From: an uncultured Bacteroidia bacterium
GTDB taxonomy: Bacteria > Bacteroidota > Bacteroidia > Bacteroidales > Prolixibacteraceae
NCBI GenBank assembly: GCA_903902325.1
Contig: CAIUUO010000177.1
Location: 1-32,934, forward strand
DNA: 32,934 nt
Reading direction: 5' to 3'
The position numbers and the translations under genes were made by a program. Position 1 is the stretch's first letter. Every line of letters begins with the position of its first letter. Positions 11,706 through 29,919 of this stretch are shown one piece after another. Below the pieces are notes generated by a model. It was not told where the DNA came from, searched no databases, and was given only the letters and a program-made list of their open reading frames with translations.

Positions 11706-11797
11706 CTAAATTAGTTTATTGTTGAACAGAATTGATATGCAAAGTAATTCGCAAAAATGGCCTGCATAAAAATTCAAAAACTAAATCATTCAAAATT

Positions 11798-14700
11798 ATG
11801 AAAAAAAAATCACTGATGAAGTATCATCGGGATCCGGTGCTACAAAAAATCCTCTTAACTATGCGACTAACGCTATTTTTGCTGGTTTTGAATATTCTGA
11901 GTGCCTATTCAGCCAGCTACGCCCAAAAAACCAAATTGAATCTGAATATTCAGAACGGTCAGGTGAAGGATGTATTGGCTGAAATCGAAACCCAGAGCGA
12001 ATTCTTTTTCATGTACGACAACAATCAGGTTGACGTAGAGAGGAAAGTAAACCTGGAGGCCAAAGCCGAGAACATTGATCTGGTACTTCAGAAATTGTTT
12101 GAAGGTACCGATGTCAATTTCAGGGTTGTCAATCGTCAGATTGTTCTTTTCCCGGAATCCTCCGCCAATGTTCCCCAGGCAGGAGGTAAGGTTCACGGGA
12201 AAGTGACAGATCCGTCAGGAGCGACCTTGCCCGGTGTCACTGTTTCAGTGCCCGGAACAACGATCGGCGTCATAACCGATATGGACGGTAACTATGCCTT
12301 GTCCAATGTTCCCCAAAACGCTTTCCTGCGTTTTTCATTCGTCGGAATGAAAGGACAGGAGGTACAGGTGGGCAATAAATCGGTCATCAATGTTGTATTG
12401 GAACAGGAGACCGTTGGCATAGAGGAAGTGGCAGTAATTGGTTACGGTTCAGTTAAGAAAAAAGACCTGACAGGTGCTGTTGCTTCACTCAGTACGGCCG
12501 ACATCGTCAGGACATCCCCTGCCAATGCCACACAGGCTTTGCAAGGTCAGGTTCCGGGTGTTGCCGTTATGAAAGGAAGCAACTTGCCAGGACAGGCATT
12601 CAGCATTGATATTCGCGGTGAAAATACCATTACAGGTGTGACAGAACCGCTTGTCGTGATAGACGGTGTATTCGGCGGAAGGCTCAGAGACATCAACCCT
12701 GCAGATATTCAATCAATTGATATTCTTAAGGATGCCTCTTCAACCGCGATTTATGGTTCTCGCGGGGCCAACGGGGTTGTCATTATCACTTCCAAAAAAG
12801 GGGTTGCCGGAAAACCAAAGGTAACGGTGGATCTTTACACGGGTATCAAAACTCCCGCGCATTTGCCAAACCTTCAAACTGCACAGCAATTCTATCAGAT
12901 GACCTATACGGATGCAATATTGAATCTTGGAGGTCCCAACACTTTTTCAACCAATGAGATGGCGATGATCAACAATAATAAGAGCACAAATTGGGTGAAT
13001 GAACTGACAAAGCCAGGTATGACCGCCGGAACAACAGTAGCCGTAACAGGTGGTACCACGGGAACAACCTACCGGTTTTCCAGCGGTTACATCCAGGAAG
13101 ACGGTAATATTCCCGGAAGTACTTTCAAAAAATACAGTTTGAATGGTGCTCTTGACAGTAAAATTACTGATTTCCTTCGGGTTGGAATGACTGCCTACCT
13201 GAATTACAGTACGAACCCGACAGGTTCTTACGAGGCGTTGCGCTCTGCGTACCGCGCCAGGCCGACAGGCGTTGTTAACTATGATCAGTTAACTAATCCG
13301 AGTGACGGTTTTGACCTGAACATTGGTCCCTGGAATGGTTATGCCGTTTGGATGGGAATCAAGGACAACCAGGTGCTCAATCCATTGGTTGAAGCAGATC
13401 CTGCCAACTACCAGTTTGAGACAAGATTGACCAACGAAATGGGCAACGCTTTTGCGGAAGTAACCTTCCTGAAGAATTTCAAATTCAAATCATCCATATC
13501 AGCTTCGATCATTGATCAGCGTCAGGGTGACTATCGTGGTACTTATACCAAAGACCGCGCAGGTGTCAACCTTCCAAGGGCTACCTATTCCACTGCGGAT
13601 AATGCCAGTTACACTTTCGACAATCAGCTGGACTACAATGGCAAAAAAGGGAAACATAAACTGAGCGCAACCCTTCTGCAAAGTGCCTATAAGAATATTG
13701 CCGAGACCTATTCCATTGCTGTCCAGAACCTTCCTTATGCCTCTATCTGGTATAATTTAGGTACAGCAGGTAATGCGAACATAACAGGTGTAAGCAGCAG
13801 TTACAAGATGAACACACTGCAGTCTTACATGGGAAGGTTGAACTATTCGTACGACGAAAAATATCTTCTTACCCTGACCGGTCGTAGTGACGGTGCCTCA
13901 CAATTGAGCGAAGGCAATAAGTGGGCCTTTTTCCCCTCTGCAGCCCTGGCATGGAGGTTGGTGGATGAAAATTTTGTCAAAAAATTGAACCTTTTTTCCG
14001 ACCTTAAACTTAGGTTAAGCTACGGTGAAGTTGGTAACTCAAACGTTTCCCCTTACAGTACGCAGGCCTCTATTCTAAACACCATCTACAGTTATGACCA
14101 GGCTCTTGGAAATGGATTCGCACCCGGAAATTTAGGTAACAAAGACCTGAAATGGGAAAGAAGCCAGGAGGTAAATATTGGTTTGAACCTGGGATTCCTG
14201 AAAAACAGGATCACAGCAGCTGTTGAGGTTTATAAAAAGAAAACCAAAGACCTGATTTTACAGGAAAACTTACCTACTTCAACAGGTTTCAATTCCGTTT
14301 TTGCGAACGTGGGTGAGATTTCAAACAAAGGTGTCGAGCTTTTGGTAAATACCAGAAATATAGTCACCAAAGATGTAACATGGACCACCTCCTTTAATTT
14401 CTCCAAGAACATCAACAGGATTGAGGCTTTGGCAAACGGTGTTCAGGCCATTATCGGCAATGCATTGTTTGTTGGTTCCCCTGTAAAATCTTACTATGAT
14501 TACAAGTTCAGCGGAATCTGGCAGATTGCGGACAGTGTCGCTGCAAAATCCTTTGGCCAGTCTCCCGGATCCGTTCGGGTCGTTGATACCAACAAGGATG
14601 GCGTTATCTCTTCCGCAACTGGAAAGGATGACAGGCAGATACTTGGAACTCAGTTGCCAAACTACATCATGGGGATGACCAACCATGTCAATTACAAGGA

Positions 14701-15118
14701 TTTTGATCTCTCCTTCCAGTTGTACTATCGCAACGGAACAACTTTCAACAACAACCTGCTGGCAGGTACCATGGGTGATTATACCAATTTCCGTTATAAC
14801 CACATCGTACTGAACTACTGGACAAGAAAAAATCCAACCAATGACTTTTACGGTCCAGGAGTTTCCCAGCCGTATAAAAGTGCCATCCAATATGAAGACG
14901 CAAGTTATTTAAGAGTATCAGATATTACCGTCGGCTATACTATGCCCAAGAGAGTTCTTGACAAAGTTAAAATTGATAAACTTCGTCTCTACCTGCAAAT
15001 AACAAATCCATTTGTGTTTAGCAAATATCATGGTCTGGATCCTGAATACAATTCAAGTACCTACATCGATGATGTTCCCAATATCGTTTATACAATTGGG
15101 TTAAATCTTGGTTTCTAA
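11798..15118 (+). CDS. susC: SusC-type TonB-linked outer-membrane transporter with STN domain
   Basis: This 1106-residue outer-membrane transporter imports oligosaccharides with its SusD partner. I chose the ATG at 11798, which opens a long n-region and signal ending SAYSASYAQ (about residue 43). An in-frame start at 11732 only adds polar residues. The STN domain (about 46-117) relays ligand binding to the FecR-type anti-sigma factor. A carboxypeptidase-regulatory-like domain (about 130-204) follows, then the plug with KDASSTAIYGSRGANGVVII (about 311-330), the hallmark of the SusC family. The rest is the 22-strand barrel. susD starts 29 bases downstream. The 137-base gap upstream probably holds its promoter. 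The glycan is unknown, and the symbol is given in the generic family sense. Confidence 0.95.
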   Translation: MKKKSLMKYHRDPVLQKILLTMRLTLFLLVLNILSAYSASYAQKTKLNLNIQNGQVKDVLAEIETQSEFFFMYDNNQVDVERKVNLEAKAENIDLVLQKLFEGTDVNFRVVNRQIVLFPESSANVPQAGGKVHGKVTDPSGATLPGVTVSVPGTTIGVITDMDGNYALSNVPQNAFLRFSFVGMKGQEVQVGNKSVINVVLEQETVGIEEVAVIGYGSVKKKDLTGAVASLSTADIVRTSPANATQALQGQVPGVAVMKGSNLPGQAFSIDIRGENTITGVTEPLVVIDGVFGGRLRDINPADIQSIDILKDASSTAIYGSRGANGVVIITSKKGVAGKPKVTVDLYTGIKTPAHLPNLQTAQQFYQMTYTDAILNLGGPNTFSTNEMAMINNNKSTNWVNELTKPGMTAGTTVAVTGGTTGTTYRFSSGYIQEDGNIPGSTFKKYSLNGALDSKITDFLRVGMTAYLNYSTNPTGSYEALRSAYRARPTGVVNYDQLTNPSDGFDLNIGPWNGYAVWMGIKDNQVLNPLVEADPANYQFETRLTNEMGNAFAEVTFLKNFKFKSSISASIIDQRQGDYRGTYTKDRAGVNLPRATYSTADNASYTFDNQLDYNGKKGKHKLSATLLQSAYKNIAETYSIAVQNLPYASIWYNLGTAGNANITGVSSSYKMNTLQSYMGRLNYSYDEKYLLTLTGRSDGASQLSEGNKWAFFPSAALAWRLVDENFVKKLNLFSDLKLRLSYGEVGNSNVSPYSTQASILNTIYSYDQALGNGFAPGNLGNKDLKWERSQEVNIGLNLGFLKNRITAAVEVYKKKTKDLILQENLPTSTGFNSVFANVGEISNKGVELLVNTRNIVTKDVTWTTSFNFSKNINRIEALANGVQAIIGNALFVGSPVKSYYDYKFSGIWQIADSVAAKSFGQSPGSVRVVDTNKDGVISSATGKDDRQILGTQLPNYIMGMTNHVNYKDFDLSFQLYYRNGTTFNNNLLAGTMGDYTNFRYNHIVLNYWTRKNPTNDFYGPGVSQPYKSAIQYEDASYLRVSDITVGYTMPKRVLDKVKIDKLRLYLQITNPFVFSKYHGLDPEYNSSTYIDDVPNIVYTIGLNLGF

Positions 15119-15147: not shown

Positions 15148-17067
15148 ATGAATATTTTTAAAAAATTCCGAACATCTTTGATCTACATCTCATTGATTGT
15201 AATCATAGGAGCAGGGTGCAAACAAAGTTTTCTAACTGAGGAGAACCCGGCAAACAGAACAACCGACAACTACTATACCAATGCAGCAGGCTACGAAAGC
15301 CTCGTAACCTCCTGTTATCCGTTACTCAGGGATATCACGCAGCAAAGAGTTCTCATGTTCCCCGGAACAGACATTTTCGCAGCAAGTGGCTGGGGTGGAG
15401 TTTATTTCAACCAACCCAATCCGCTGGCAAGCGCTTACGACCAGTATGATATTCGAATGAATGCCTCTCTGGGTGAACTTCAGACACTCTGGGATTTTTT
15501 GTACCGCGAAATAAACAGATGTAACGCAGTGGTTACCAGGGCTCCCAACATTCCGGACATGGCAGATTCACTGAAGAATGTCAGAATCGGTGAAGCCAAA
15601 TTTTTGCGTTCCTTGTGTCTGTTCTGGGCCGTTCAGACCTGGGGCGACGTACCTATGCCATTGGTTGAAACCACTTCTGCCAGCCTGGAAGTAACAAAAG
15701 CGCTTTCGAAAGATATCTATTCCCAAATTGTTGGCGATTTGACACAATCTATTGCCAAATTACCGGCCAAACAAAAGGACGTCGGCCGTGTGACACAGGG
15801 AGCTGCCAAATTTCTACTCGCACGCGTTTATCTGACCCGGGGGTGGAATTATAACAATGCGCTGGGTGGAACGTCTGCCGACTTTACGAGTGCACTCCAG
15901 TTGTGCGACCAGATCATCGCTTCCGGATTGTATCCCCTGGAAGCCAACTGGAACAATTTGTGGCCGCTACACAACATCAACCCCAACAAGGAGACTGCCA
16001 ATGCAACAAGTTCTGTTGCCGTCTGCAACAAAAGTGCCGAAGTCATTTTCGCCATCCAGTATGCCAGTGCAACAAGTTACCAGGGAGACCCGAGTGTTGG
16101 AACTACTACGCTTGGAAATAATATGCACGAGATGTTCTCAGGTGGGCCAAGTGGCGTTGCCCAGCAGGCAAGAACTTCAGCCTACAACAGGTTCCTTCCC
16201 TCACAAATCTGTACCTGGGCTGCTTACAGACTCTTTGATCCAATCATGGATATCAGGTACAAGGGAACTTTTAACAATGTTTCCTATGCAACCACTGCAG
16301 GTTCCATTTCACTGGCCACCAACAAGCCTTTTCCGCAGAACCTCACGTTGACCTATGCAATAGGCGATACCACCGCAATTGCCAGGGACTGGAACAGCCC
16401 CGTAACAACTGCCGCTCAAAGGGGTGTTGACATTCAGGGTGGAACCAAACACTATTCCGTTATCAATCCAAATGAATATGTCGGATTGGGCTATATTACC
16501 GGAACAACTCCAATTGTTGACGTTTTAGCAGGCCCGGCACCGATGGTATGGAAATTCTTCCAACCCGGAATCACTTATGGTGATGGTTACTCAACCTTCA
16601 ACGATCCGCTCTTCCGTTCTGCCGAAGTTTACCTGATGGCTGCCGAAGCCATTGTTAAAGGTGCAACCGGTGCAGTATTGGGAACTGCTGACGTCTATTA
16701 CAACAAGATCCTTGACAGGGCGCTTGGTTCAGCCAATGCCGGTAAATCCCCGATGAGGGCTACCAATCCGGAACTTGTCAATGATCCCCTCACCAATATC
16801 GTTTCATACAGGGCTACCGCAGCAAACATCACGGTTGACATGATCCTGGATGAACGCGCAAGGGAATTGCTTGGTGAAGGAAACCAAAGGTGGTTTGACC
16901 TTAAAAGAACTGGCACATTAATTGCCAGGGCATCAAAATACAACCCCTGGACTGGTTACGGATTAACTGGTACTCCACTGATCTCTGCCAAACATCTTGT
17001 AAGGCCGATTCCTCAGGGAATGCTTGATAATTCCAATCCAAGGATTCAGCAAAACGACGGCTACTAG
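15148..17067 (+). CDS. susD: SusD/RagB-type glycan-binding lipoprotein
   Basis: This 639-residue surface lipoprotein forms the lid over the SusC barrel and captures glycan chains. The lipobox IIGAGC places the lipidated cysteine at residue 24. The N-terminal SusD-like region, with NRTTDNYYTNAAGYESLV, and the helical TPR-like core are recognisable. The C-terminal RagB signature contains LDERARELLGEGNQRWFDLK, and the usual ending motif KHLVRPIPQGMLD is present. It lies 29 bases after susC, so the two are clearly co-transcribed. A strong terminator hairpin begins 38 bases after its stop codon, which should give susCD higher expression than the enzymes downstream. The symbol is generic and the bound glycan is unknown. 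Confidence 0.94.
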   Translation: MNIFKKFRTSLIYISLIVIIGAGCKQSFLTEENPANRTTDNYYTNAAGYESLVTSCYPLLRDITQQRVLMFPGTDIFAASGWGGVYFNQPNPLASAYDQYDIRMNASLGELQTLWDFLYREINRCNAVVTRAPNIPDMADSLKNVRIGEAKFLRSLCLFWAVQTWGDVPMPLVETTSASLEVTKALSKDIYSQIVGDLTQSIAKLPAKQKDVGRVTQGAAKFLLARVYLTRGWNYNNALGGTSADFTSALQLCDQIIASGLYPLEANWNNLWPLHNINPNKETANATSSVAVCNKSAEVIFAIQYASATSYQGDPSVGTTTLGNNMHEMFSGGPSGVAQQARTSAYNRFLPSQICTWAAYRLFDPIMDIRYKGTFNNVSYATTAGSISLATNKPFPQNLTLTYAIGDTTAIARDWNSPVTTAAQRGVDIQGGTKHYSVINPNEYVGLGYITGTTPIVDVLAGPAPMVWKFFQPGITYGDGYSTFNDPLFRSAEVYLMAAEAIVKGATGAVLGTADVYYNKILDRALGSANAGKSPMRATNPELVNDPLTNIVSYRATAANITVDMILDERARELLGEGNQRWFDLKRTGTLIARASKYNPWTGYGLTGTPLISAKHLVRPIPQGMLDNSNPRIQQNDGY

Positions 17068-17152: not shown

Positions 17153-19315
17153 ATGAAAAAAACAGCCCTTTCAATCCTGTTTCTGCTTCTCATTTTCAGG
17201 TTTACAGAAGCCCAAACAATCCAATATGTTCCAAAATTTGCCAATGAAAACCATCCTGAAATAGGATACTGGTTTATTTCGCCAAGCCTGTTACCCAACG
17301 ATAATTACCTGGTGCATCTTGACACGATTGCACAAAAATGCCCCTATACCCTGCTTTTTCTCACAGCAAGGGACGGAGCCAATTTCTACAATTTTCCCCT
17401 GATGCATCCAGTCTTTCAGAAAATTGTTTCTCAGGCTCACAAAAAGGGTTTGAAGGTTGGATTGCAACTTTGGGGCAATTACAAGGATACAACGACCGTC
17501 GGATCCCAAAGGATGATCATCGAAAACGAGGTTCTGCTGGATCAGGCAGGAAATGCCGGAGTCACCGTCAAGGCAAAATATGTCAGGTTTCCCGACAGGC
17601 TGTTGCACTCCGACCTTTTCAGGGTTTTTGCTTTCAGGAAAACTTCGGATGGATTCTATGATCCCGCAACACTGAAGGATATTACTTCAAAATGCCAGGC
17701 AACTACTCCCGATAAAGAGACAGTAACTGTTAGCATCAAAGGCGGAGCGAGCGTTAAAGGCCTGACAGCCTGTATCATGACACAACAGACCTGCAGCCAG
17801 AGCAGCATGTGGGGGAATGTCGAAATTAACGGTTTCGCCGAAGCCATGAAGGCCTATTCCGATATCCCGTTTGACGGATTTGCATTGGATGAATACGGTA
17901 ACAAGTTTGTTGCCCGCGAAGCAGAGTTGAAACCCGGTGAGGCATTCAGGGGAAGATGGTATTCTGCGGCCATGGCTAAAGCCTTCAAAAGCACCACCGG
18001 CCATTCCCTGGAGAAAACTCTTTTTGATGCCCGATATGCGCCTTCCGGGAAACCGGAAGTCAGGATTAGTGCCATCAACGAGTACATGGATTTCATGCGG
18101 AAAGGAGCCTTGAGGGTTGAATCAGCGGTCAACCTGAAGTCGAAGGAAATATTTGGAAAAGATATCTTCAACGGTATACACAACACCTACCACAACAGCC
18201 TGGTCAACGACGAGATCTGGGCCGATGGCATCGGCTGGTGGGATGCTCCGAGGCTTTATGGCCAGACAGACGAGAGAACACCAACCCCAACCCAGATGGG
18301 AATAGCCATGGCCCATCCAAAGAATGCAATGTACAACCAGTTCTACGACAAGGATCTTGAACCGGTGCTGGTAAAGGCTTTCAGCGACCTTCGCTGGGGT
18401 ATCCGTACCCATTACCATGCCCTGAACGACAAGCGCCCAAATCGTTTTGATCTTGAATTCCCTGAAGCCATTGAAGGAATCAATAAAATTGAAAATTGTG
18501 CACGACTGCTCAATAAATTCAATCCCTCCCTGCCAAAGATCAATCTGCTGGTAATATTCGGAATGGATGCCTTGTGCAACTGGTATCCCAATGTATCAGA
18601 CAGGGGGATTTACGATATCAACGACAAGATGCGGGTGGAGGAAAAAGGAATTGAAATCTGGAATGCTGGTTATCTGAATGCCGTGGTGCCCTCCGATCTG
18701 ATCGCCAGCAAGAAGCTGACATTGACTAAAGATGGTAAACCGGTAATGAACGGTCATACCTTCGATGCGGTTCTCTTTCTGAATCCACAGTATGCAAAGG
18801 AACCTGTGCTGAAATTCCTTGAAGAATATGAAGCAAAAGGTGGAAAACTGATGATCGAAGGGATCGCCGATCATGACTTCAAAGCCAACGACATCACCAA
18901 ACGCTTCGCTGCCATACGTGAAAAAGCAACCGTGAAAGGCTACTCTGTTGAAGCGCTTCCCAAACTTGGTCTGAGCAAGAACCTGCTCCCCGACGGATGC
19001 AGGAATGAGGATGGTTCCAGTGTCTTTATTGACAGGCCTTCCCTGATTACTGATGCCACGGCGAACTTTAATGTCACCATCGATGGGGATAAATACAGCG
19101 GAACCTACAAGGGAATTGCCATCCTTGCAGCCGATAATAAACATGGAATAACCAAACTGGCCGCGACCGGATTGAAAGAACTTCGCCGGAATGGCGAGAT
19201 AATCCTTTCCTTCAAAAATCCCGTTGATGTCTTCGCCGAAAAACTGGCAGGTCAGGCAAAAATTACAATCGGTGATCCATCCTGTCATATAGTGCCATTG
19301 ATTAACAAAATGTAA
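17153..19315 (+). CDS. Secreted TIM-barrel glycoside-hydrolase-like protein, family not recognised
   Basis: This 720-residue protein has a Sec signal ending FTEA (about residue 20). The rest reads as three parts. The first (about 30-455) looks like a (beta/alpha)8 barrel, with PYTLLFLTARDGANFYNFP, GLKVGLQLWGNY, FDGFALDEYGN (240-250) and a WADGIGWWDAP stretch (356-366). D246/E247 and E354 or D358 are candidate catalytic acids. The second part (about 463-575) resembles a class-I glutamine-amidotransferase-like or GH42 trimerisation-type fold, with FDAVLFLNP and YEAKGGKLMIEG. The last part is probably a beta-sandwich. This order recalls GH42-like enzymes, but I cannot place it in a named family. 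Its position directly after susD suggests a core role on the locus glycan. Confidence 0.55.
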   Translation: MKKTALSILFLLLIFRFTEAQTIQYVPKFANENHPEIGYWFISPSLLPNDNYLVHLDTIAQKCPYTLLFLTARDGANFYNFPLMHPVFQKIVSQAHKKGLKVGLQLWGNYKDTTTVGSQRMIIENEVLLDQAGNAGVTVKAKYVRFPDRLLHSDLFRVFAFRKTSDGFYDPATLKDITSKCQATTPDKETVTVSIKGGASVKGLTACIMTQQTCSQSSMWGNVEINGFAEAMKAYSDIPFDGFALDEYGNKFVAREAELKPGEAFRGRWYSAAMAKAFKSTTGHSLEKTLFDARYAPSGKPEVRISAINEYMDFMRKGALRVESAVNLKSKEIFGKDIFNGIHNTYHNSLVNDEIWADGIGWWDAPRLYGQTDERTPTPTQMGIAMAHPKNAMYNQFYDKDLEPVLVKAFSDLRWGIRTHYHALNDKRPNRFDLEFPEAIEGINKIENCARLLNKFNPSLPKINLLVIFGMDALCNWYPNVSDRGIYDINDKMRVEEKGIEIWNAGYLNAVVPSDLIASKKLTLTKDGKPVMNGHTFDAVLFLNPQYAKEPVLKFLEEYEAKGGKLMIEGIADHDFKANDITKRFAAIREKATVKGYSVEALPKLGLSKNLLPDGCRNEDGSSVFIDRPSLITDATANFNVTIDGDKYSGTYKGIAILAADNKHGITKLAATGLKELRRNGEIILSFKNPVDVFAEKLAGQAKITIGDPSCHIVPLINKM

Positions 19316-19368: not shown

Positions 19369-20760
19369 ATGCAATTAAATAGCTGCTTAAAAATAACATT
19401 TTCCACTTTGCTGATTTCCGGCTACGGGCTGATTAACGCGCAACAAAAGCCCAATATCCTGATCATTATGACGGATGAGCTATCCACAGAGTCAATGAGT
19501 TGCAATTTGGGCAGCCAATACCTGAAGACTCCCAATTTGGATGATCTGACCCGGCATGGGGTGAGTTTTACGCGTGCCTATTGTGCCAATCCACTTTGCA
19601 TTCCATCCAGGAGTTCCCTGTTTACGGGTCGTTACCCGCATGAAACCGGAATTCAGACCAATGAAGCCAAACTGATTGATCCGATTGAATTTCCAACATT
19701 GGGAACCATCTTCAAAAATGGAGGGTACGAAACAGGATATGTTGGGAAATGGCATCTGCCTTATGACAGGAACCTGCCTGAATCGCACGGCTTTAGCTAC
19801 CTTCCAAACAAAAAAGGGAATGGGGCTGACAGCCTTTCACCCGGTTTGGCGGCAAAATTTTTGGAAATGAAGCGTCAGCATCCATTTTTGCTGGTGGTAT
19901 CCTTCATGAATCCGCACAACATCTGTCAGTGGCCACGCGGTGAGAAATTGCCCGACGGCGAAATAGGAAATCCTCCGGCAGCAGAATTGTGTCCGCCTCT
20001 CAGGCCGAATTCCATGCCTTCCAAAAACGAAACCGACATCATGCAATTGATGAGAACCTCCATGCAGTCGAGTGATGCATTCCCGGTAGGCGATTTCACG
20101 GATGACAAATGGCGCCAGTACATCTGGGCCTACTATCGCCTGATTGAAAAGGTCGACGGAGAAATCGGAAAAGTGCTAAAATCCTTGCATGAATCTGGAC
20201 TTGAAAAAAATACGCTTATCGTTTTTATGAGCGATCACGGTGATTGCCAGGGAGCACACAGGTGGAACCAAAAGACCGTTTTTTATGAAGAGGCTTCAAA
20301 GGTTCCTTTCATCTTTAACTACAACGGACTCAAATCCCGGAAATCAGATTTTCTGGTGCAAACGGGTATAGACTTGCTTCCAACCTTGTGCGAATTTGCG
20401 GGAATTCCGGTTCCAGATAAAAGCCGTGGTGTAAGTCTCAAAAAAATCATTTCGGACGGTTCTGCTCCCAAAGAGCGTGAATATGTGGTGGTGTCCGATC
20501 ATCTGATCCAGGGGGTGGCCGTCGACGGGAAAAAACCGGAACCGGAAGGCCGCATGCTTCGGAACAAGCGTTTCAAATACTGGATCTACAACGAAGGCTT
20601 GCAGAGAGAGACGCTCTACGATATACAGAATGATCCGGGCGAAATGGTCAATCTTGCGGGTGATCCCAAATTCATCGATGAGCTAAAAAAATGCCGTGGA
20701 CAGTTATCCGAATGGGCCCTCCGGTACAACGATCCCTATCAGAAATACCTTATCAATTAA
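19369..20760 (+). CDS. S1-type sulfatase (CIPSR active site)
   Basis: This 463-residue exported sulfatase (signal about residues 1-24) hydrolyses sulfate esters on the locus glycan. C77 in C-I-P-S-R is the residue converted to formylglycine by a maturation enzyme encoded elsewhere. Metal and sulfate ligands appear as TDE (D36, E37), GKWH (K127, H129), NPHN (181-184), SDHGD (D289, H290) and K302. The second N-terminal acidic ligand is Glu instead of the common Asp. The C-terminal part carries the usual ETLYDIQNDPGEMVNLAG motif. The lyase gene begins eight bases after its stop codon, so the two are co-translated neighbours. The S1 subfamily and the sulfate position cannot be read by eye. Confidence 0.9.
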   Translation: MQLNSCLKITFSTLLISGYGLINAQQKPNILIIMTDELSTESMSCNLGSQYLKTPNLDDLTRHGVSFTRAYCANPLCIPSRSSLFTGRYPHETGIQTNEAKLIDPIEFPTLGTIFKNGGYETGYVGKWHLPYDRNLPESHGFSYLPNKKGNGADSLSPGLAAKFLEMKRQHPFLLVVSFMNPHNICQWPRGEKLPDGEIGNPPAAELCPPLRPNSMPSKNETDIMQLMRTSMQSSDAFPVGDFTDDKWRQYIWAYYRLIEKVDGEIGKVLKSLHESGLEKNTLIVFMSDHGDCQGAHRWNQKTVFYEEASKVPFIFNYNGLKSRKSDFLVQTGIDLLPTLCEFAGIPVPDKSRGVSLKKIISDGSAPKEREYVVVSDHLIQGVAVDGKKPEPEGRMLRNKRFKYWIYNEGLQRETLYDIQNDPGEMVNLAGDPKFIDELKKCRGQLSEWALRYNDPYQKYLIN

Positions 20761-20768
20761 ATATTGGT

Positions 20769-23318
20769 ATGAGAAATCGTGAAGCAGTAAAATATGTTGT
20801 TGTGACATGCTTGTTTTTTTTGATGGCCGGCCCGGGTAGATCACAAAAAATTGGAGTGTCCGGCAATCTTCCTGCACAGGCTCCGTATCCTAAGATCAGA
20901 ATCGGTTCCACTCCTTCCGGAGGCGAAGAACCCAAATTCAACTCCCCCAGTTTTGAATGGCCTACAAAGAAAAAAGCCGTTTACAACATAAGGATCTCTT
21001 CTTCAAAAGCTTTTGAAAGGGAGGTGATTGAAAGGAGCGGAATACCGTATGCCATTTTCAATCCGCACAAAAAGCTTGTACCGGGTATCTGGTATTGGCA
21101 ATACAAAGTCAACAATGAAAACTGGAATGCAACAGATTCCTTCACGATAAAATCCTCCACACGAATATTCGAAACTCCTGACATCACGACTATTCTAGAC
21201 CGAATTCATTTGGAACATCCTCGTGTACTCATCAAAAAAGAGGAACTGAAATCTTTTCGAATAAAAGCCAATGGTTATAAAGAATCAGCAGATGTAATTA
21301 AAAAAGCAGATAGTTTTACGGATAAGCCTGCCCCTCTCGAAGCTTCCGTACTTCCTTCCTTCAAAGGAAAAGATGATTTCGAAAATGGAAAAATCGCCTC
21401 CATTGCAAGCAAGCGTGCAGGATGGAATGTGCACAATGTGATCGTCACACTTTCGCAGGCATATATTCTGACGGGCAATTTGAAATATTTCAATACCGCA
21501 AAAATGTGGATGCTGGAGGTTTCCAAATGGGATCCCAAAGGACCATCCCATACCAATAATTTCGGTGATGCCGGAATCATGTCGGGTCTGGCCATTGGGG
21601 TCGATACTTTCTGGGATTTATTGTCAGTAGCGGAAAGGGAACAAATTGTAAAACATATTGCCATCCGGGCCGGCCAATTCTACCAGCTTTGGATAGACCA
21701 GGTGGAAAGCCGCTCATCATCTATGCACGTTTGGCAGCATATCCTGCATAATTTGCTGCAAACATCGATTGCGTTGAAAGGAGAAATCCCGCAAACAGAC
21801 CTGTGGATGGAGTACATCTATGAACTCTGGATTGCCCAATCACCAAAAATGGGAGAAGAGGATGGCGCCTGGTTCAACGGAACCTCCTATTTCGGAATGA
21901 ATACCCTTTCACTGATTGATGTATCTTCTATTTTTCATGAACTATCGGGAAAAGATTTCATGGGATCAGAATGGTTTAAGAATAACCCCCGTTGGCTGAT
22001 CTACGCCTTTCCACCCAAATCTGTTTCTGACGGATTCTGCAATGATGGAGAGAGGTACCAATTCCCAATTGTGAATTATGCCGGTTATACAGATGCATTG
22101 GCCCGCCTGTTAAACCTACCCTATGCTGGCTGGTATGCTCAGTCCGTCGCGAAAAGCTTTGGAAATGAGATTTCGGATGACGAAGAATTTCGCTGGTTCA
22201 GGATACGGAGCGGATTAAAAATGAAGCTTCCTGCCACGCCAAAGGAGTTTAACCTTCCGCAGGCAGCACGTTTCCCTGACATCGGTGTTGCTTATATGCA
22301 TACTACTATGCAAAATGCTACGACAGACCTTATGTTCTCCATACGGAGCAGTCCATATGGCCCGATGGCCCATGCCCATGCCGATCAGAACACCTTCAAC
22401 ATTGCCTTCGGAGGGAAAAGGCTTTTTTACAATACAGGTTACCGGCCGGCCATGGGAGATCCCCACTTCCTGGGTTGGTACAAACATACCCGGGGCCATA
22501 ACGGTGTTTTAATCGATGACAACGGTCAGCCCTTTTCGGATGAATCCTATGGATGGATACCCCGCTTCCTCCATGGAAAACAAATATCCTATGCGGTGGG
22601 GGATGCTTCAAATGCCTATTCAGCAACAGAGGAAGGGGTGAAAACGGATCATGGAATGAAGTTCTTCCGGCGACATTTCATCATGCTTCGCCCATCCACA
22701 GTCGTGATTTACGATGAACTGGAGGCAGACCATAAGGCCGAATGGAGCTGGTTGCTGCACAACGATACCGGTTTGGAAATCGATCCAGGCAAAAAAACAA
22801 TAGCCGCGAAAAATGAGGCTGCCAAGGCCCTGGTATCCCTTTACTCTTCCTCCCCAATAGATTTTAAGGTGACAGACCAGTTCTCCGTTCCGGTCGACAA
22901 CTGGACCAAAAAGACAGATGAAGAGGGAGATACCATTGACTTTAAAAACCAGTGGCACTTCAAGGGTGTATCCAGGGAGAAAACTGTAAAGATGCGATAC
23001 CTCGCAATCATCCAGGTCAAACCTGATGGCAGGTTTGAACAGATCGTCACAGGCAGGAACGATTGCCTTTTCACGGTAGGTGATTGGGAAATTGAGGCTG
23101 AAATGAATTCTTCAAACCCTGCATACATCAAGGTGAGGAAATCCGACAACAGTGCCTTACTGGTTTCCGGAGGTGATCTGGAAATAAAGGCGAAAACATT
23201 CAAAGGTAAGATTACCGGGAGTTCAAAATTGCTCGAGACCATTGACGGCAAGGAGGTTTTCAAGGAAACTGCCGATGAACTTCCGGTTTCAATTCAGAAA
23301 GTGATCAACAATCATTGA
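20769..23318 (+). CDS. Heparinase II/III-like polysaccharide lyase (DUF4962)
   Basis: This protein of about 850 residues is predicted to cut uronate-containing polysaccharide by beta-elimination. I chose the ATG at 20769, eight bases after the sulfatase stop codon, since it opens an export signal ending near GPGRSQ. The upstream in-frame start at 20691 would overlap the sulfatase by 70 bases and add no signal. An Ig/FnIII-like domain (about 38-130) is followed by the DUF4962 alpha/alpha toroid (about 140-480), with AGWNVHNVIVTLSQAY, HVWQHILHNLL (320-330) and WFNGTSYFGMN (368-378). The heparinase II/III beta-sheet domain (about 495-700) has the signature HAHADQNTF (535-543). Candidate catalytic residues are H320-H327/N328 and Y374. 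PL15, PL17, PL21, PL37 and PL39 share this build, so the substrate is open. Confidence 0.83.
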   Translation: MRNREAVKYVVVTCLFFLMAGPGRSQKIGVSGNLPAQAPYPKIRIGSTPSGGEEPKFNSPSFEWPTKKKAVYNIRISSSKAFEREVIERSGIPYAIFNPHKKLVPGIWYWQYKVNNENWNATDSFTIKSSTRIFETPDITTILDRIHLEHPRVLIKKEELKSFRIKANGYKESADVIKKADSFTDKPAPLEASVLPSFKGKDDFENGKIASIASKRAGWNVHNVIVTLSQAYILTGNLKYFNTAKMWMLEVSKWDPKGPSHTNNFGDAGIMSGLAIGVDTFWDLLSVAEREQIVKHIAIRAGQFYQLWIDQVESRSSSMHVWQHILHNLLQTSIALKGEIPQTDLWMEYIYELWIAQSPKMGEEDGAWFNGTSYFGMNTLSLIDVSSIFHELSGKDFMGSEWFKNNPRWLIYAFPPKSVSDGFCNDGERYQFPIVNYAGYTDALARLLNLPYAGWYAQSVAKSFGNEISDDEEFRWFRIRSGLKMKLPATPKEFNLPQAARFPDIGVAYMHTTMQNATTDLMFSIRSSPYGPMAHAHADQNTFNIAFGGKRLFYNTGYRPAMGDPHFLGWYKHTRGHNGVLIDDNGQPFSDESYGWIPRFLHGKQISYAVGDASNAYSATEEGVKTDHGMKFFRRHFIMLRPSTVVIYDELEADHKAEWSWLLHNDTGLEIDPGKKTIAAKNEAAKALVSLYSSSPIDFKVTDQFSVPVDNWTKKTDEEGDTIDFKNQWHFKGVSREKTVKMRYLAIIQVKPDGRFEQIVTGRNDCLFTVGDWEIEAEMNSSNPAYIKVRKSDNSALLVSGGDLEIKAKTFKGKITGSSKLLETIDGKEVFKETADELPVSIQKVINNH

Positions 23319-23339: not shown

Positions 23340-24929
23340 ATGATAAATCGTGGAAAGTCATACATCAGTCTTGCATTGTTTTCCGCACTGACAGGAGGAA
23401 GCTTGTTGGCAGGTAATTCCAACGTTGAAAAGCCGGAAGGCAAAAGACCAAATATCCTGTTTGCCATAGCCGACGATCAGTCATTCCCGTATGCATCGGC
23501 CTATGGAACAAAAGGGATTAGAACTCCGTCATTTGATGAGGTTGCCGGGAAAGGCATCCTGTTTACCAACGCATTTGTGGCAGCCCCGCAGTGCAGCCCG
23601 TCAAGGGCAGCCATCCTTACCGGAAAAAATATCTGGCAACTGGAGGAGGCCGGAACGCACAGCAGTTATTTTCCTAAAAAATTCACGGTTTTCACCGACC
23701 TCCTGGAAAAATCAGGTTACCAGATCGGCTTTACCGGCAAGCCATGGGCCCCCGGGAACTGGCAAGACGCGGGTTGGTCACGCAATCCGGTAGGCCCGGA
23801 ATACAACTTAAAATTATTTAATTCTGTACCCGCCTCCGGCATAAGTGTAATCGACTATTTTGAAAATTTCAAGGATTTTTATACCCAGAAAGAGGCTGGC
23901 ACTCCCTTCTTTTTCTGGTACGGCGGACATGAACCTCACCGTATCTACGAAGACGGGTCCGGAATAAAGGCAGGGATGAAATTATCAGATGCTGTGGTCC
24001 CGCCCTTTTTGCCCGATGTGAACCTGGTAAAAAGTGATGTACTCGATTATTACTTTGAAATAGAGTGGTTTGACACCCAGCTAGGCAAAATGATACAATT
24101 TCTGCGCGAAAAAGGTGAACTGGACAATACCATCATCGTGGTCACGGCGGATAACGGAATGCCTTTCCCCGCCGCGAAGGCAAACCTGAGGGAATATGGC
24201 ACCCATGTGCCTCTGGCGATATGCTGGCCAAAGGAAATCTCAGGAAAGAGGGTGGTCAGCGAACTGGTCGGACTGATCGATCTTGCACCCACATTCCTTG
24301 AAATTGCCAAAATAAAGGATGTTCCGCAGATGACAGGCAAGAGTCTTTCGTCACTGCTCTTGCCCGGGAAAGACAAAGCCAAATATACTCCTGAAAAATA
24401 TATCCTGACAGGCAGGGAACGCCATTCCCACGCCAGGCCCGACGACCTCGGCTATCCTGCACGGGCGATCAGAACCGCTGATTATCTGTTTGTCCTCAAT
24501 TTCAAACCCGACAGGTGGCCGGCCGGTGATCCTGTTCCGGCAACAGCAAAAACCGGCAAGGAAGGTAACAATGAAAAATCCCTGTGGCCGGGCTATCACG
24601 ATATCGATGACTCACCTACCAAGTTGATGCTGATTGAGAACAGCACGAAATATCCCGGTCCGTTCCGCTTCGGCTATGAAAAAAGGCCTGCCGAAGAGTT
24701 GTACAGTATCAGGGAGGATCCGGGCTGTACCAAAAATCTGGCAGAAGATCCAAAACTCAGTACCCTGAAAAATGAATTGAGAAAAACGCTTGAGAAGGAA
24801 CTAAAGGCACAGGGAGATCCGAGAATGAACGGGAAAGAAGATCTTTTCGAATCGTACCCGCGTTTCGGGGCCATGCGGGATTTTCCGGGGTTTAAAGAAA
24901 AAGGAAAATACAATACAAAATACAAGTAG
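23340..24929 (+). CDS. S1-type sulfatase, sulfamidase (S1_8)-like
   Basis: This 529-residue exported sulfatase has C85 in C-S-P-S-R as the formylglycine site. D45/D46 form the N-terminal metal pair, and K133 sits in FTGKPWAPGNW. GGHEPHR (195-201) and ADNGMPFPAAKANLREYGTH (270-289) complete the site. The DNGMPFP...NLR stretch is strikingly like human N-sulfoglucosamine sulfohydrolase, which reads DNGIPFPSGRTNL, so I place it in the S1_8-like group. Bacterial members of that group act on several glycans, so this does not prove heparan as the substrate. It lies 21 bases after the lyase, and a sulfatase relic starts two bases after its stop codon. Confidence 0.88.
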   Translation: MINRGKSYISLALFSALTGGSLLAGNSNVEKPEGKRPNILFAIADDQSFPYASAYGTKGIRTPSFDEVAGKGILFTNAFVAAPQCSPSRAAILTGKNIWQLEEAGTHSSYFPKKFTVFTDLLEKSGYQIGFTGKPWAPGNWQDAGWSRNPVGPEYNLKLFNSVPASGISVIDYFENFKDFYTQKEAGTPFFFWYGGHEPHRIYEDGSGIKAGMKLSDAVVPPFLPDVNLVKSDVLDYYFEIEWFDTQLGKMIQFLREKGELDNTIIVVTADNGMPFPAAKANLREYGTHVPLAICWPKEISGKRVVSELVGLIDLAPTFLEIAKIKDVPQMTGKSLSSLLLPGKDKAKYTPEKYILTGRERHSHARPDDLGYPARAIRTADYLFVLNFKPDRWPAGDPVPATAKTGKEGNNEKSLWPGYHDIDDSPTKLMLIENSTKYPGPFRFGYEKRPAEELYSIREDPGCTKNLAEDPKLSTLKNELRKTLEKELKAQGDPRMNGKEDLFESYPRFGAMRDFPGFKEKGKYNTKYK

Positions 24930-25356: not shown

Positions 25357-26877
25357 ATGAGAATATCGATTTTGTTTTCAGTCTTAACTTTGTTGTCCTT
25401 TCATGTAAATGCTCAACTGCAAAGTCAGGAGCTGCCTTTTCTGAAAGCCAATATCTCGGTTGCTCCGGATCTAAGATCTTCTTTTGCAAAAGATGGCCGG
25501 CTGATTCTGTATGTGACAAAGCAAAATGCAAAAGAACCACGTCAGCGTTCTGAATTATTAATCGCCGTGAACCAAAAAAACTGGAATCCTGATCTCTCCT
25601 ATTGTCTGGATCCCAAAAATAGTGGAGTAGCAGTTTCCGGTATTGAAAAATGGGCAGTTAAACCTTCCGAAACAATCTATTTTCAGGTAGTTTACATGCA
25701 AAATCCTGATGACGGACAGAAAAATGCTGCTGGTAATCTGTACAGTGAAATTGTTTCCGTAATATCCCGGAAAGATCAGGTACTCTCTTTCACGCTTAAT
25801 AAGAAAATACCCGCCGGGGAGATCATTGATCACAAGTTTGTAAAATCTTTCTCCATAAAAAGTAAATTCCTTTCTGACTTTTCAGGTTATCCACGCTATC
25901 TGAAAGCTTCTGTATTGCTCCCTTCAGGTTACTTCAAAAATCCAAACAAATCCTATCCTATCTGCTACAGGGCACCCGGATTGAATGGCAGATATACTGC
26001 CGTAAATGGACTGTTTACCAACAACAATAAATTCACTGATTTCTGGTTTTCAGAAAATTCACCACAAATCATCTATGTTTTTCTTGATTCACAAGGTCCA
26101 TATGGTGATACCTATCAGGTTGACTCAGAAAATAATGGCCCTTGCGGGAAGGCGCTAACCGAGGAGTTGATACCTGAAATTGAAAAAGGGGTAAAATACG
26201 ATCCAAAGACAAAAATGAGATTTCTTACCGGATATTCTACCGGAGGATGGGTATCGTTGGGATTACAGATCTTCTACCCCGACTTCTTTGATGGAACCTG
26301 GTCCTACAGCCCCGATCCTGTTGAATTTGAACATTTCGGTCTGATCAATATCTATGGGGATGAGAATGTTTTCTACAGTCGTTTCGGTTATCTCCAACCT
26401 GCAAATCGAACCATTTATGGAGAACCCAAACATTCGATGAAAGACAAGATAGAAACTGAAAATACATCCGGCAGAACCGGCGATTACCGGACATCAGGAG
26501 GACAATTCGGAGCCTACAATGCTGTTTTTGGACCCCGTGGTACAGATGGTTTACCCACTCTGATGTTTGATCCGGTAACTGGCAAAATTGATCACACTAT
26601 TGCCATACAGTGGGAAAAATATGACCTCAAAAAAATACTGGAGAAAAACTGGTCAACACTCGGACTGAAATTACAAGGAAAAATCTGGATCTGGACCGGC
26701 GACATGGATGCTTTGTACTCCAATGTTGCCACCTGGTTTTTTCAAAAATTCATCGAAAAAACAGAAAATCCCAAATCTGATGCAAAAATCACCTTCACAC
26801 CGATGGCAGGTCATTGTCAGGAGTGGAGCGATGAAAGTGTGCTGAAGATGATTGGCGAAAAAGTGGCAGGGAAATAA
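25357..26877 (+). CDS. Secreted alpha/beta hydrolase, putative carbohydrate esterase
   Basis: This 506-residue protein has a signal ending FHVNAQ (about residue 20). An N-terminal beta-rich domain of unknown type (about 30-160) is followed by an alpha/beta-hydrolase domain (about 165-505) that resembles esterase D/CE1-type enzymes. The nucleophile elbow GYSTGGW gives S294, and H486 in MAGHCQEW is the likely catalytic histidine. D449 or D451 in WTGDMDALYS is the likely acid. Its position among sulfatases and a lyase suggests removal of acetyl or other acyl groups from the glycan before cutting, but the acyl group is inference. It starts 40 bases after the sulfatase relic and belongs to the same transcript. 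Confidence 0.72.
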   Translation: MRISILFSVLTLLSFHVNAQLQSQELPFLKANISVAPDLRSSFAKDGRLILYVTKQNAKEPRQRSELLIAVNQKNWNPDLSYCLDPKNSGVAVSGIEKWAVKPSETIYFQVVYMQNPDDGQKNAAGNLYSEIVSVISRKDQVLSFTLNKKIPAGEIIDHKFVKSFSIKSKFLSDFSGYPRYLKASVLLPSGYFKNPNKSYPICYRAPGLNGRYTAVNGLFTNNNKFTDFWFSENSPQIIYVFLDSQGPYGDTYQVDSENNGPCGKALTEELIPEIEKGVKYDPKTKMRFLTGYSTGGWVSLGLQIFYPDFFDGTWSYSPDPVEFEHFGLINIYGDENVFYSRFGYLQPANRTIYGEPKHSMKDKIETENTSGRTGDYRTSGGQFGAYNAVFGPRGTDGLPTLMFDPVTGKIDHTIAIQWEKYDLKKILEKNWSTLGLKLQGKIWIWTGDMDALYSNVATWFFQKFIEKTENPKSDAKITFTPMAGHCQEWSDESVLKMIGEKVAGK

Positions 26878-26921: not shown

Positions 26922-28271
26922 ATGATAAGCACAAAAAAAATCACATTCTGCCTGGCAATATGCCTGTGTATCGCCGGTTCCCTTTTTGCCCAGGGAAACT
27001 GGACATCCTTGTTTAACGGGAAAAACCTCAAGGGTTGGAAACAACACGATGGTAAGGCAAAGTACGAAGTGAAAGACGGAACGATTTTAGGGACAAGCAA
27101 GTTTGGAACAATCAATAGTTTTCTTTGTACAGAAAAAAATTATGGAGACTTTATCCTGGAATTCGAGTTCAAGGTATCGGATAAGCTCAACTCCGGGGTT
27201 CAATTCAGAAGCGAGAGCAGACCCGATTGCAACAATGGTGAGGTTTATGGTTATCAATATGAGATTGACCCTTCCCAACGTGCCTGGAGTGGTGGAATAT
27301 ATGATGAAGGGCGCCGGAGTTGGCTCTATCCACTGACCAAAAATCCGGGTGCCCGAACTGCCTTCAAAGCCAACGAATGGAACAAGGCAAGGGTTGAAGC
27401 GGTTGGAAAATACATCAAAACCTATCTGAATGGAACGCTTTGCTCCTATCTGCTTGACGACATGACCCTCTCAGGTTTCATCGCCCTGCAGGTCCATCAG
27501 GTGAAAGATCCCAAAAATGAAGGATTAACTGTTGCCTGGCGCAACATCAGAATCTGCACCCAAAATATTGACAAAGAACTCATACCCATCAAATCACCTA
27601 TCTGCCAAGTCAATGGTATTGACAACACCATCTCTGAACAGGAAGCCAAAGAGGGATGGAAGCTGCTTTTTGACGGTAAAACAACACAGGGATGGAAAGG
27701 AGCAAAATTTGGCGATTTTCCTTCCCTGGTCTTTGTTGTTGATAACGGCATGATAAAAATTAAGAAAGCAGAAGTGAACTCAGGTGGGATTATTACCGAA
27801 AAAAAGTATAAAAACTTTGAACTGCTTGTTGATTTTAAGCTTACCGAAGGTGCAAACAGTGGAATAAAGTATTTTGTCAACAGGGACGAAAAAACTGGAA
27901 AAAATTACAACATCGGTTGTGAATACCAGATCCTGGACGACCAACTTCATCCCGATGCCAAACTGGGTGTCAAAGGGAACCGGAAATTGGGATCGTTGTA
28001 TGATTTAATTGCCGCACCCGACGATAAGCCGTTCAGGCCAAAAGCGTTTAACCATGCACGAATTGTCGTTAAAGGCAACAAAGTGGAACACTGGTTGAAC
28101 GATGTGAAAATTGTAGAGTATGAGCGCAATACCCAAATGTGGCTGGCGCTGGTAAACTACAGTAAGTTTGCTGATCTTCCGAATTTTGGTAACGCACCTG
28201 AAGGGAATATCCTGCTACAGGATCATGGTGATGATGTGTGGTTTAAAAATATTAAAATAAGGGAGTATTAA
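26922..28271 (+). CDS. Tandem DUF1080 protein (3-keto-glycoside hydrolase type)
   Basis: This 449-residue exported protein (signal about residues 1-24) holds two copies of the DUF1080 jelly-roll domain (PF06439). The first (about 26-215) opens [18 protein letters not shown], and the second (about 245-448) opens [15 protein letters not shown]. Both keep the family core, for example LNSGVQFR and [11 protein letters not shown]1080 proteins act on 3-keto-disaccharides or 3-keto-glycosides made by GFO/IDH/MocA-type oxidoreductases, and many also bind sugars. No such oxidoreductase gene is in the window, so one or both domains may serve in binding, or the partner may lie further right. Active-site residues were not assigned. 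Confidence 0.85.
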
Positions 28272-28341
28272 TTCTATAGTATTAATTGTCAATAGATAAC
28301 ATATCAAATCCAAAGCATTGACATTCAATATTATTCTTAAA

Positions 28342-29919
28342 ATGAAACTGAAAATTACTTCATTAGTCGCTCTTTCGGCATTAGCCATGAATTTAGTGCA
28401 GGCACAAAAGCCCAATATTATTGTTATTTTGGCAGATGACATGGGCTATTCGGATATTGGATGTTATGGCAGTGAAATTGCCACGCCCAATATTGATCGT
28501 CTGGCAGCCAACGGTTTGCGATTCAGAAGTTTTTACAACAATGGCAAGTGTTGTCCGACAAGAGCCTCCCTGCTAACGGGACTCTACAACCATGAGGTCG
28601 GAGTGGGAAATATGGTCACCAAAGCCGATGTCCCATACCAGGAGGGCTCGTACCAGGGATTTTTAAACAAGCAATGCGTTACCCTGGCTGAAGTTCTCCG
28701 GACAGCCGGGTATTCTACCTATATGTCAGGGAAATGGCATGTTGGAGAGCGCCAAGAACATTGGCCGCTGCAACGGGGGTTTGACAAATACTTCGGACTG
28801 ATCAGCGGAGCCTGCAGTTATTTCGAAATACCAAAGGATCCTCCCCTCCGGACAATGGCCTATGGGAACAAATCCTGGACACCTCCGGCAGAAGGCTTTT
28901 ACATGACAGATGCTATATCTGATTCAGCCGTTGCCTTCCTGAAATCGCATAATCGGACCAAAAGAGATAATCCGTTTTTTATGTATATCGCCTACACGGC
29001 CCCGCATTGGCCGTTGCATGCACTGGATGAGGATATAAAGAAATATGATGGAATCTACGACAAGGGTTGGGATTCAATTCGCAACGAGCGCTACAGAAAA
29101 ATGGTGCGCCTGGGTATCATTGGTGAAAAACTAAAACTCAGTCCACGAACTTCTAAGATTCCTTCGTGGGATGAAGCTGAAAACAAAAAATTGTGGATCC
29201 GAAGAATGCAGGTTTATGCTGCAATGATCGACAGAATGGACCAGGGAATCGGTCGGGTGATCAGCACCCTCGAAAAACTAAAGAAAACTGAAAATACATT
29301 GATCATTTTTCTTTCCGACAATGGTGGCGCCAACGAAAATGCTTCTTCTGAAAATTTTAACAAACCCGGGGTTCTCACGGGTGAAAAAGGATCCAGCGAC
29401 TCCTACAAGGAACCGTGGGCGAATGTTTCCAATACCCCATACAGATATTATAAAAATTGGATGCACGAAGGCGGAATAATTACACCGCTCATTGTCGACT
29501 GGCCAAATGTCCTCAAAGGAAATGGAACCCTGACCAACCAGGTTGGACATGTCATTGACATCATGCCGACACTCCTTGAAGTTGCCGGTGCCAAATACCC
29601 GGAACAATTCAAAGGCAACACCATTAAGAAGTTACGGGGGGTCAGTCTCGTCCCCGCCTTCAGGGGAACTGCTGTTGAGCGAACCAATCCGCTGTTTTGG
29701 GAACATTCCGGAGGGCAAGCCATGCGGCAGGGAAACTGGAAAATAGTCAGGAAAAATAACCGACCGTGGGAACTGTACAACCTGGAAACTGACCCGACTG
29801 AGCTGGTTAACCTGAGTGAAAAAGAATCGGTTCGGCTGAAAAAGATGACCGCACTGTACGAAATGTGGGAAAGGGAAGTAGGCGTAAATGCCTTGAACAA
29901 CAAGACAACTGAAGAATAA
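28342..29919 (+). CDS. S1-type sulfatase (CCPTR active site), S1_4-like
   Basis: This protein of about 525 residues is an exported arylsulfatase-type enzyme (signal about residues 1-22). I chose the ATG at 28342, which opens the signal MKLKITSLVALSALAMNLVQ. An upstream in-frame start at 28318 adds eight residues. The active-site motif is C70-C71-P-T-R, so C70 is the formylglycine residue, with Thr in place of the usual Ser. D32/D33, K132 and H134 in GKWHVGE, SDNGG, and HEGGIITPLIVDWP complete the site. The opening ADDMGYSDIGCYG and the CPTRASLLTG motif fit the S1_4-like group. The next sulfatase starts 26 bases downstream. The sulfate position is unknown. Confidence 0.9.
   Translation: MKLKITSLVALSALAMNLVQAQKPNIIVILADDMGYSDIGCYGSEIATPNIDRLAANGLRFRSFYNNGKCCPTRASLLTGLYNHEVGVGNMVTKADVPYQEGSYQGFLNKQCVTLAEVLRTAGYSTYMSGKWHVGERQEHWPLQRGFDKYFGLISGACSYFEIPKDPPLRTMAYGNKSWTPPAEGFYMTDAISDSAVAFLKSHNRTKRDNPFFMYIAYTAPHWPLHALDEDIKKYDGIYDKGWDSIRNERYRKMVRLGIIGEKLKLSPRTSKIPSWDEAENKKLWIRRMQVYAAMIDRMDQGIGRVISTLEKLKKTENTLIIFLSDNGGANENASSENFNKPGVLTGEKGSSDSYKEPWANVSNTPYRYYKNWMHEGGIITPLIVDWPNVLKGNGTLTNQVGHVIDIMPTLLEVAGAKYPEQFKGNTIKKLRGVSLVPAFRGTAVERTNPLFWEHSGGQAMRQGNWKIVRKNNRPWELYNLETDPTELVNLSEKESVRLKKMTALYEMWEREVGVNALNNKTTEE

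Follow-up and report, generated by a model that had tools for sequence, protein, structure and literature searches.

The stretch of DNA analysed here (the window) is a contig of 32,934 nucleotides, CAIUUO010000177.1, from an uncultured Bacteroidia bacterium. Within a polysaccharide utilization locus (PUL), its + strand carries an open reading frame from an ATG at 17153 to 19315, encoding a putative glycoside hydrolase (GH) of 720 residues, hereafter the target. We find that the target is a probable member of a glycosidase family outside Pfam, NCBIfam and the Protein Data Bank (PDB), built on a GH106-like scaffold. Our leading reading, held tentatively, is that it is a probably secreted GH, outside the libraries searched and remotely related to GH106, most likely inverting on a terminal sugar. 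Without the key catalytic residue of GH106, the target may cut sugar chains differently. The secretion call comes from inspecting the N-terminus by eye, and residues 1–20 (17153..17212, +) resemble a signal peptide.

The frame is a real gene, as an earlier note on this DNA had taken it to be. One GTDB scan, with patterns from close relatives, found 41 related loci, all assigned to Bacteroidota by record title and several of them sharing a genome, and the window's genome has three copies including the target. Forty of the loci were frame-extended, giving a complete frame in 34 and one cut by a contig end in 6. The target also lies directly 3′ of SusC and SusD, in the first enzyme slot where the earlier note had placed it.

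That no named family could be recognized, another statement of that note, holds in the libraries searched. The target matched no family in Pfam at E ≤ 10 or in NCBIfam at E ≤ 0.1, and no PDB sequence at E ≤ 10. A profile of nine relatives found nothing in the PDB, and hmmsearch with a profile of 37 relatives gave a single match, NDUFA7 at E 1, taken as chance. The Pfam scan of the nine relatives returned six families, each in one member, the best being DUF6134 at E 0.028, and these too were read as chance. In the literature searched, largely outside the subscription journals, no paper was recognized as dealing with the family. A recent CAZy family could already include the protein, so the novelty is relative to Pfam, NCBIfam and the PDB.

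The predicted structure, searched with Foldseek, has a confident GH-type fold. The AlphaFold2 model, made with 37 sequences, has a pLDDT (predicted local distance difference test) of 90.3 and a pTM (predicted template modelling score) of 0.90. By DSSP, the barrel strands are b1 37–42, b2 67–72, b3 101–107, b4 242–246, b5 339–343, b6 370–372, b7 393–397 and b8 417–424, the naming being our own assignment on the model. A beta-sandwich at residues 118–217 (17504..17803, +) is inserted between strands 3 and 4, also by DSSP. The barrel is followed by a Rossmann-like middle domain at about residues 462–612 (18536..18988, +) and a beta-rich C-terminal domain at about residues 613–720 (18989..19312, +), both with limits set by eye. 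The barrel, 'amidotransferase-like' middle and beta-rich end that had been read from the letters are thus all present in the model.

Foldseek ranked GH112 3wfz first (E 7.3e-14, TM-score 0.41), followed by GH42 4ucf (2.6e-9), the alpha-L-fucosidase 6tvk (6.8e-9) and GH164 7oms (8.2e-9), all at 10–12% identity. VIA-align, where Z values no more than 1 apart count as tied, gave GH5_18 9y4v (Z 19.5, root-mean-square deviation 3.7, 326 residues aligned), GH106 6q2f (18.9, 5.0, 582), GH42 4uzs (18.3, 4.0, 477), GH106 5mqm (17.3, 4.2, 534) and GH164 6t5o (16.6, 3.8, 416). Among these VIA-align matches, the longest overlap is with GH106. According to the model, the target shares the three-domain scaffold of the GH106, GH42 and GH112 group. 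GH20, GH123 and GH156 are not among the Foldseek and VIA-align matches listed, which is uninformative. A separate fold of residues 30–396 has pLDDT below 50 at fragment residues 315–334 and 340–367, and its matches were not used.

The full-length sequence signal was sought with hhalign. Against a set of 12 high-scoring PF17132 loci and one neighbour protein, the target family scored 8.0%. After that outcome, a broad GH106 set of 33 proteins was assembled by adding 20 weaker PF17132 matches, and against it the score was 96.2% over 635 columns. Adding a third distant relative to the query raised it to 97.0% (E 1e-10) over 636 co-linear columns, spanning 26 to 734 of the query profile. The controls for the 33-protein comparison stayed low, with eleven other families at 0.5–13.8% and reversed profiles at 0.1%.

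Other large GH106 samples gave similar values. A set of 32 proteins, mostly of the Asp-Glu type described below and composed of 29 loci found with L093 plus L093, L050 and L036, scored 96.3%, and all 63 GH106-type proteins together scored 97.7% (E 1.4e-12). The GH42 core set of 26 proteins scored 13.0%, and a looser set of 30 proteins scored 87.7% over only 137 columns of the middle domain. The profiles of GH106 and GH42 match each other at 98.9% over 263 columns; thus these two families are themselves linked. The comparisons support the target as a probable remote full-length relative of GH106, with a high score for the broad set and weak ones for the narrow sets.

Around the active site, twelve residues are invariant in all 40 aligned rows of the target family, from which every conservation count here is taken: D246, E247, H343, E354, W362, W363, D373, E374, Y394, N395, Y398 and R418. 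D246 and E247 (17888..17893; all on the + strand) end barrel strand 4 and lie in FDGFALDEYGN, a motif that the earlier note had proposed as a source of catalytic acids and that is borne out in this respect. H343 (18179..18181) ends strand 5, E354 (18212..18214) lies in the loop after it, D373 and E374 (18269..18274, in YGQTDERTP) end strand 6, and N395 (18335..18337) is in strand 7. The second proposed motif, WADGIGWWDAP, was rejected as a source of catalytic acids, D358 and D364 each being Asp in 2 of the 40 rows. Near it, the invariant residues are E354, W362, W363 and the second acidic pair D373-E374. No acid is conserved at residues 388–398, where Glu occurs at 389 or 390 in 7 rows and neither Asp nor Glu occurs at 391–398 in any.

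An excerpt of PMC6828813 gives for the GH106 enzyme BT_0986 the acid E461, the base E593 and the metal residues D458, S459, E538, E561 and E593. In Ram106B enzymes, according to the same excerpt, Asp-Glu replaces Asp-Ser, His stands for E538 and Asp for E561, and the base is kept. Across the 63 GH106-type sequences we counted these columns, which were chosen by the motifs in L080 and L093. Asp fills the D458 column in 60 of them, and the position after it holds Ser in 33 and Glu in the other 30. His is found at the strand-5 column in 24, Asp at the strand-6 column in 31 and Glu at the base in 62. As an observation apart, GH106-type proteins, L093 and L137–L165 included, split by their strand-4 motif into Asp-Ser (33/63) and Asp/Ala-Glu (30/63), and they abound in the taxonomic family to which the window belongs, where L093 (L093:293-2386) has matches in 112 of 140 genomes.

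All six MAFFT runs place D246 in the D458 column, which holds the Asp of the GH106 metal site. The nearest active-site pattern appears to be the GH106 type with a strand-4 Asp-Glu pair, as in Ram106B. If the GH106 residues stand at the ends of strands 5, 6 and 7, which is the premise of a pairing by strand order on the model, N395 would correspond to E593, H343 to E538 and D373 to E561. In the aligned rows, the GH106 Glu base is without a conserved acidic counterpart in the target family, its exact pairing being uncertain.

Several results weigh against this placement. Foldseek puts GH112 rather than GH106 first, and GH5_18 is tied at the top in VIA-align. The MAFFT runs do not reproduce the strand-order pairing at strands 5–7. 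Five of the six align K390 with the GH106 base and the sixth aligns D412; all six set I360 against the strand-5 His; opposite the strand-6 Asp, five have a gap and one has A385. Parts of the GH106 set taken alone scored 13.8, 57.5, 28.9, 12.8 and 3.3%, and the query without its distant relatives scored 43.2%. Random 20-protein GH106 subsets gave 95.7, 96.9, 64.6 and 96.5%, the 64.6% also being unfavourable. Moreover, residues 236–470, which hold strands 4–8, scored 0.5% alone in hhalign, therefore the homology claim does not extend to the catalytic half. The regions that carry it are the N-terminal half and the middle domain, together with the order in which they come.

In the mechanism we propose, the target would be exo-acting on a terminal sugar of oligosaccharides produced by the other PUL enzymes, by single displacement with inversion. 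E247 at strand 4 would donate the proton, and D246, H343 and D373 may bind a divalent metal, if any, or the sugar. E374 together with N395 would activate water from the strand-6 and strand-7 side; they are proposed because the GH106-type Glu base is gone, and N395 may be its exact counterpart. GH95 AfcA, described in an excerpt of PMC8106489, is an inverting precedent in which the proposed water activators are Asn residues. A bolder version, possible yet rather doubtful, is that the Glu base of a GH106 scaffold has been swapped for an invariant Asn, that a strand-6 acid and this Asn, perhaps with a metal, activate water, and that the enzyme cuts a linkage in a sulfated, uronic-acid-containing heteroglycan for which no enzyme is known.

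An unlikely but serious alternative is that the target is a divergent GH106-type alpha-L-rhamnosidase, or a glycosidase of a close L-sugar, which keeps the GH106 chemistry and whose base we have mis-assigned, E374 being one candidate. The full-length homology, the strand 4 of Asp-Glu type and the similarity in length and domain order to the 697-residue GH106-type L093 all speak for it. However, where 62 of the 63 GH106-type proteins keep their Glu, the matching part of the target family shows no conserved acid, and PF17132 fails to recognize the target.

GH20 and GH123 work by a substrate-assisted retaining mechanism and carry an adjacent Asp-Glu at the end of strand 4. The target could likewise be a retaining glycosidase on a hexosaminide in a glycosaminoglycan-like glycan, its D246-E247 polarizing the 2-acetamido group and giving the proton, therefore needing no enzyme nucleophile on strand 7. 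This is again unlikely, even though the pair is invariant at the end of strand 4, strand 7 has no conserved acid and, of the enzymes in the locus, the lyase is exo-heparinase-like and one sulfatase lies close to a glycosaminoglycan 2-O-sulfatase. The homology signal goes to GH106, with the substrate-assisted families outside the comparison set, and the second invariant pair, D373-E374, is left without a role. Moreover, Asp-Glu is also found in 30 of the 63 GH106-type proteins, which keep the base.

It is very unlikely that the target is a non-catalytic or sugar-binding relative that has lost the GH106 activity. The loss of the conserved GH106 base would fit this, but several barrel-mouth acids, a His and an Arg never vary in the 40 rows, even in relatives at 22–25% identity, and such invariance is unusual for a dead enzyme. 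Least probable of all, by a small margin, is an inverting phosphorylase on the GH112 plan, with a strand-4 acid and with phosphate replacing the strand-7 residue: GH112 is the best Foldseek match and, in an excerpt of PMC8106489, its phosphate lies near the place of the GH42 nucleophile, which is acid-free in the target, but the TM-score is low and both the signal-peptide-like N-terminus and the PUL context suggest an extracytoplasmic site, where a sugar phosphate is of little use.

The family of the target was counted in samples of genomes. With the window's own genome included in all counts, it occurs in 2 of 395 genomes of the phylum sample, in 2 of 395 of the class sample by profile search and in 7 of 100 of the taxonomic-family sample. 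Profile search of the taxonomic-family sample gave 10 of 140 genomes, one of the ten being a 37-residue match at E 2.7e-4. Hosts among the 41 loci include Ginsengibacter hankyongi, Parafilimonas terrae, Pedobacter puniceum and Arcticibacter svalbardensis. On viral contigs, 35 stretches fit the search pattern and none encodes a target relative.

In a tree of 40 proteins, the target clade has 18 rows and the two other copies of the window's genome each fall in a separate clade. L010, L011 and L107 are distant proteins on a long branch, L010 being 25% and L011 22% identical to the target. Near a contig end of L046, an open frame begins with letters (L046:31-60) that resemble the remnant of a sequencing adapter, and L046 was excluded from the alignments. 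The two copies in the window's genome, at 48% identity to the target, sit on contig C154 in a long locus with GH88, GH92, GH43, GH95, GH27, GH3, sulfatases and an esterase, named by BLAST to the gene clusters.

The neighbour clusters were made by single linkage and named from representatives. Of the 17 loci in the target clade, 10 have a sulfatase as the adjacent upstream gene and 11 have a GH2 as the adjacent downstream gene. The counts for the full set of 41 are 18 for GH28, 16 each for sulfatase and GH92, 14 for esterase, 13 each for GH3, GH27 and GH88, 12 for the same GH2 and 4 for the DUF4962 lyase. These counts are lower bounds, because many loci end at contig ends. The association with sulfatases recurs and is not universal.

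Some families without a Pfam match accompany the relatives. One of about 550–570 residues (cluster 12; L030 scanned) stands beside target relatives in 6 loci, among its members being L030:5167-6873 and, on C154 of the window's genome (in L134), 32546-34216 and 34454-36118; these two copies adjoin a target paralogue. Three other PUL proteins without a Pfam match, L026:18944-20878, L024:5067-7013 and L040:1929-4526 (644, 648 and 865 residues), each occur in 2 to 4 related loci.

In the window, genes for a sigma factor, FecR, SusC (11732-15118) and SusD (15148-17067) precede the target, and all PUL genes given here with coordinates are on the + strand. Four sulfatases follow (19369-20760, 23340-24929, 28318-29919 and 29946-31397), together with a DUF4962/heparinase II-III-type lyase (20691-23318), an esterase (25357-26877), a protein with a 3-keto-disaccharide hydrolase domain (26922-28271) and a GH28 from 31543, cut by the window end at 32934. 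The lyase frame as listed shares 70 bases (20691-20760) with the 3′ end of the first sulfatase gene, so its true start is probably further downstream. Elsewhere in the window, a 503-residue protein (2632-4143, −) without a Pfam or NCBIfam match is flanked on one side by a histidine kinase gene and on the other by a gene whose product has carboxypeptidase-regulatory and TonB plug domains.

The comparison of these neighbours with the PDB covered the lyase, the GH28 and two of the four sulfatases. The lyase is closest to 6lja (E 5.4e-114), which is named in PMC7904915, an excerpt of which assigns its DUF4962 exo-heparinases to PL15_2. For the first sulfatase, the nearest entries are 3b5q (8.6e-63) and a glycosaminoglycan 2-O-sulfatase, 5g2t (3.2e-62); the third sulfatase is nearest to the arylsulfatase 7all (9.3e-112), and the GH28 to 4mxn and the exo-polygalacturonosidase 3jur. 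From these relatives, a sulfated, uronic-acid-containing heteroglycan is the likely substrate of the locus as a whole, by gene context.

The earlier note had ventured a new GH family for a sulfated glycan. Its first part is supported, as a GH-like family outside the libraries searched, by the lack of any family match, the GH-type fold and the invariant acids at the strand ends. A sulfated substrate is a possibility: sulfatases recur near the relatives, but in only 16 of the 41 loci, many of them cut at contig ends. None of Pfam, NCBIfam and the PDB covers the family by sequence, and by homology it appears to be a GH106 relative lacking the GH106 base.

Should the favoured reading hold, glycosidases would gain a family in which the scaffold is retained and its known catalytic base exchanged, and with it a clean way to test how enzymes working by single displacement can replace the residue that activates water. 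Bacteroidota PULs that carry sulfatases, GH28, GH92, GH27, GH88 and sometimes an exo-heparinase-like lyase would also become more accessible to study.

Among the known systems, the beta-mannosidase Bs164 of GH164 (6t5o) is alike in fold and differs in that the target has no conserved acid on strand 7. GH112 provides the best Foldseek match, but PF09508 is unmatched at E ≤ 10 and the target has a signal-peptide-like N-terminus. Among 148 genomes searched for GH112 sequences, neither GH112 nor the controls gave a match, which is uninformative.

The catalytic nucleophile of GH42 is a Glu on strand 7. GH42 beta-galactosidases have the same succession of barrel, Rossmann-like middle and beta end, so the 'GH42-type architecture' seen by the earlier note stands as to fold, while the full-length sequence signal points to GH106. 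In contrast to GH42, the target family has no Asp or Glu at residues 391–398, and the target has a beta-sandwich inserted after strand 3, links to the GH42 profiles weakly (core set) or over the middle domain only (looser set), and leaves PF02449 unmatched at E ≤ 10. GH42 membership was rejected on the strand-7 residue and the weak core profile.

GH106 comes closest. It differs in the Glu base and in the length of most of the GH106-type proteins retrieved, about 900–1200 residues (L093 having 697), and PF17132 is matched neither by the target at E ≤ 10 nor among the matches of the nine relatives. The fold and the broad profile fit GH106, and membership is not assigned because the base was looked for and no conserved acid was found in its place. 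What the target and GH106 (6q2f and BT_0986, 5mqm) have in common is the barrel with a beta-sandwich insert, the Rossmann-like middle and the beta C-terminus, the longest fold overlaps, a co-linear profile match, the strand-4 Asp and, in the Ram106B or GH106_dist type, the Asp-Glu pair.

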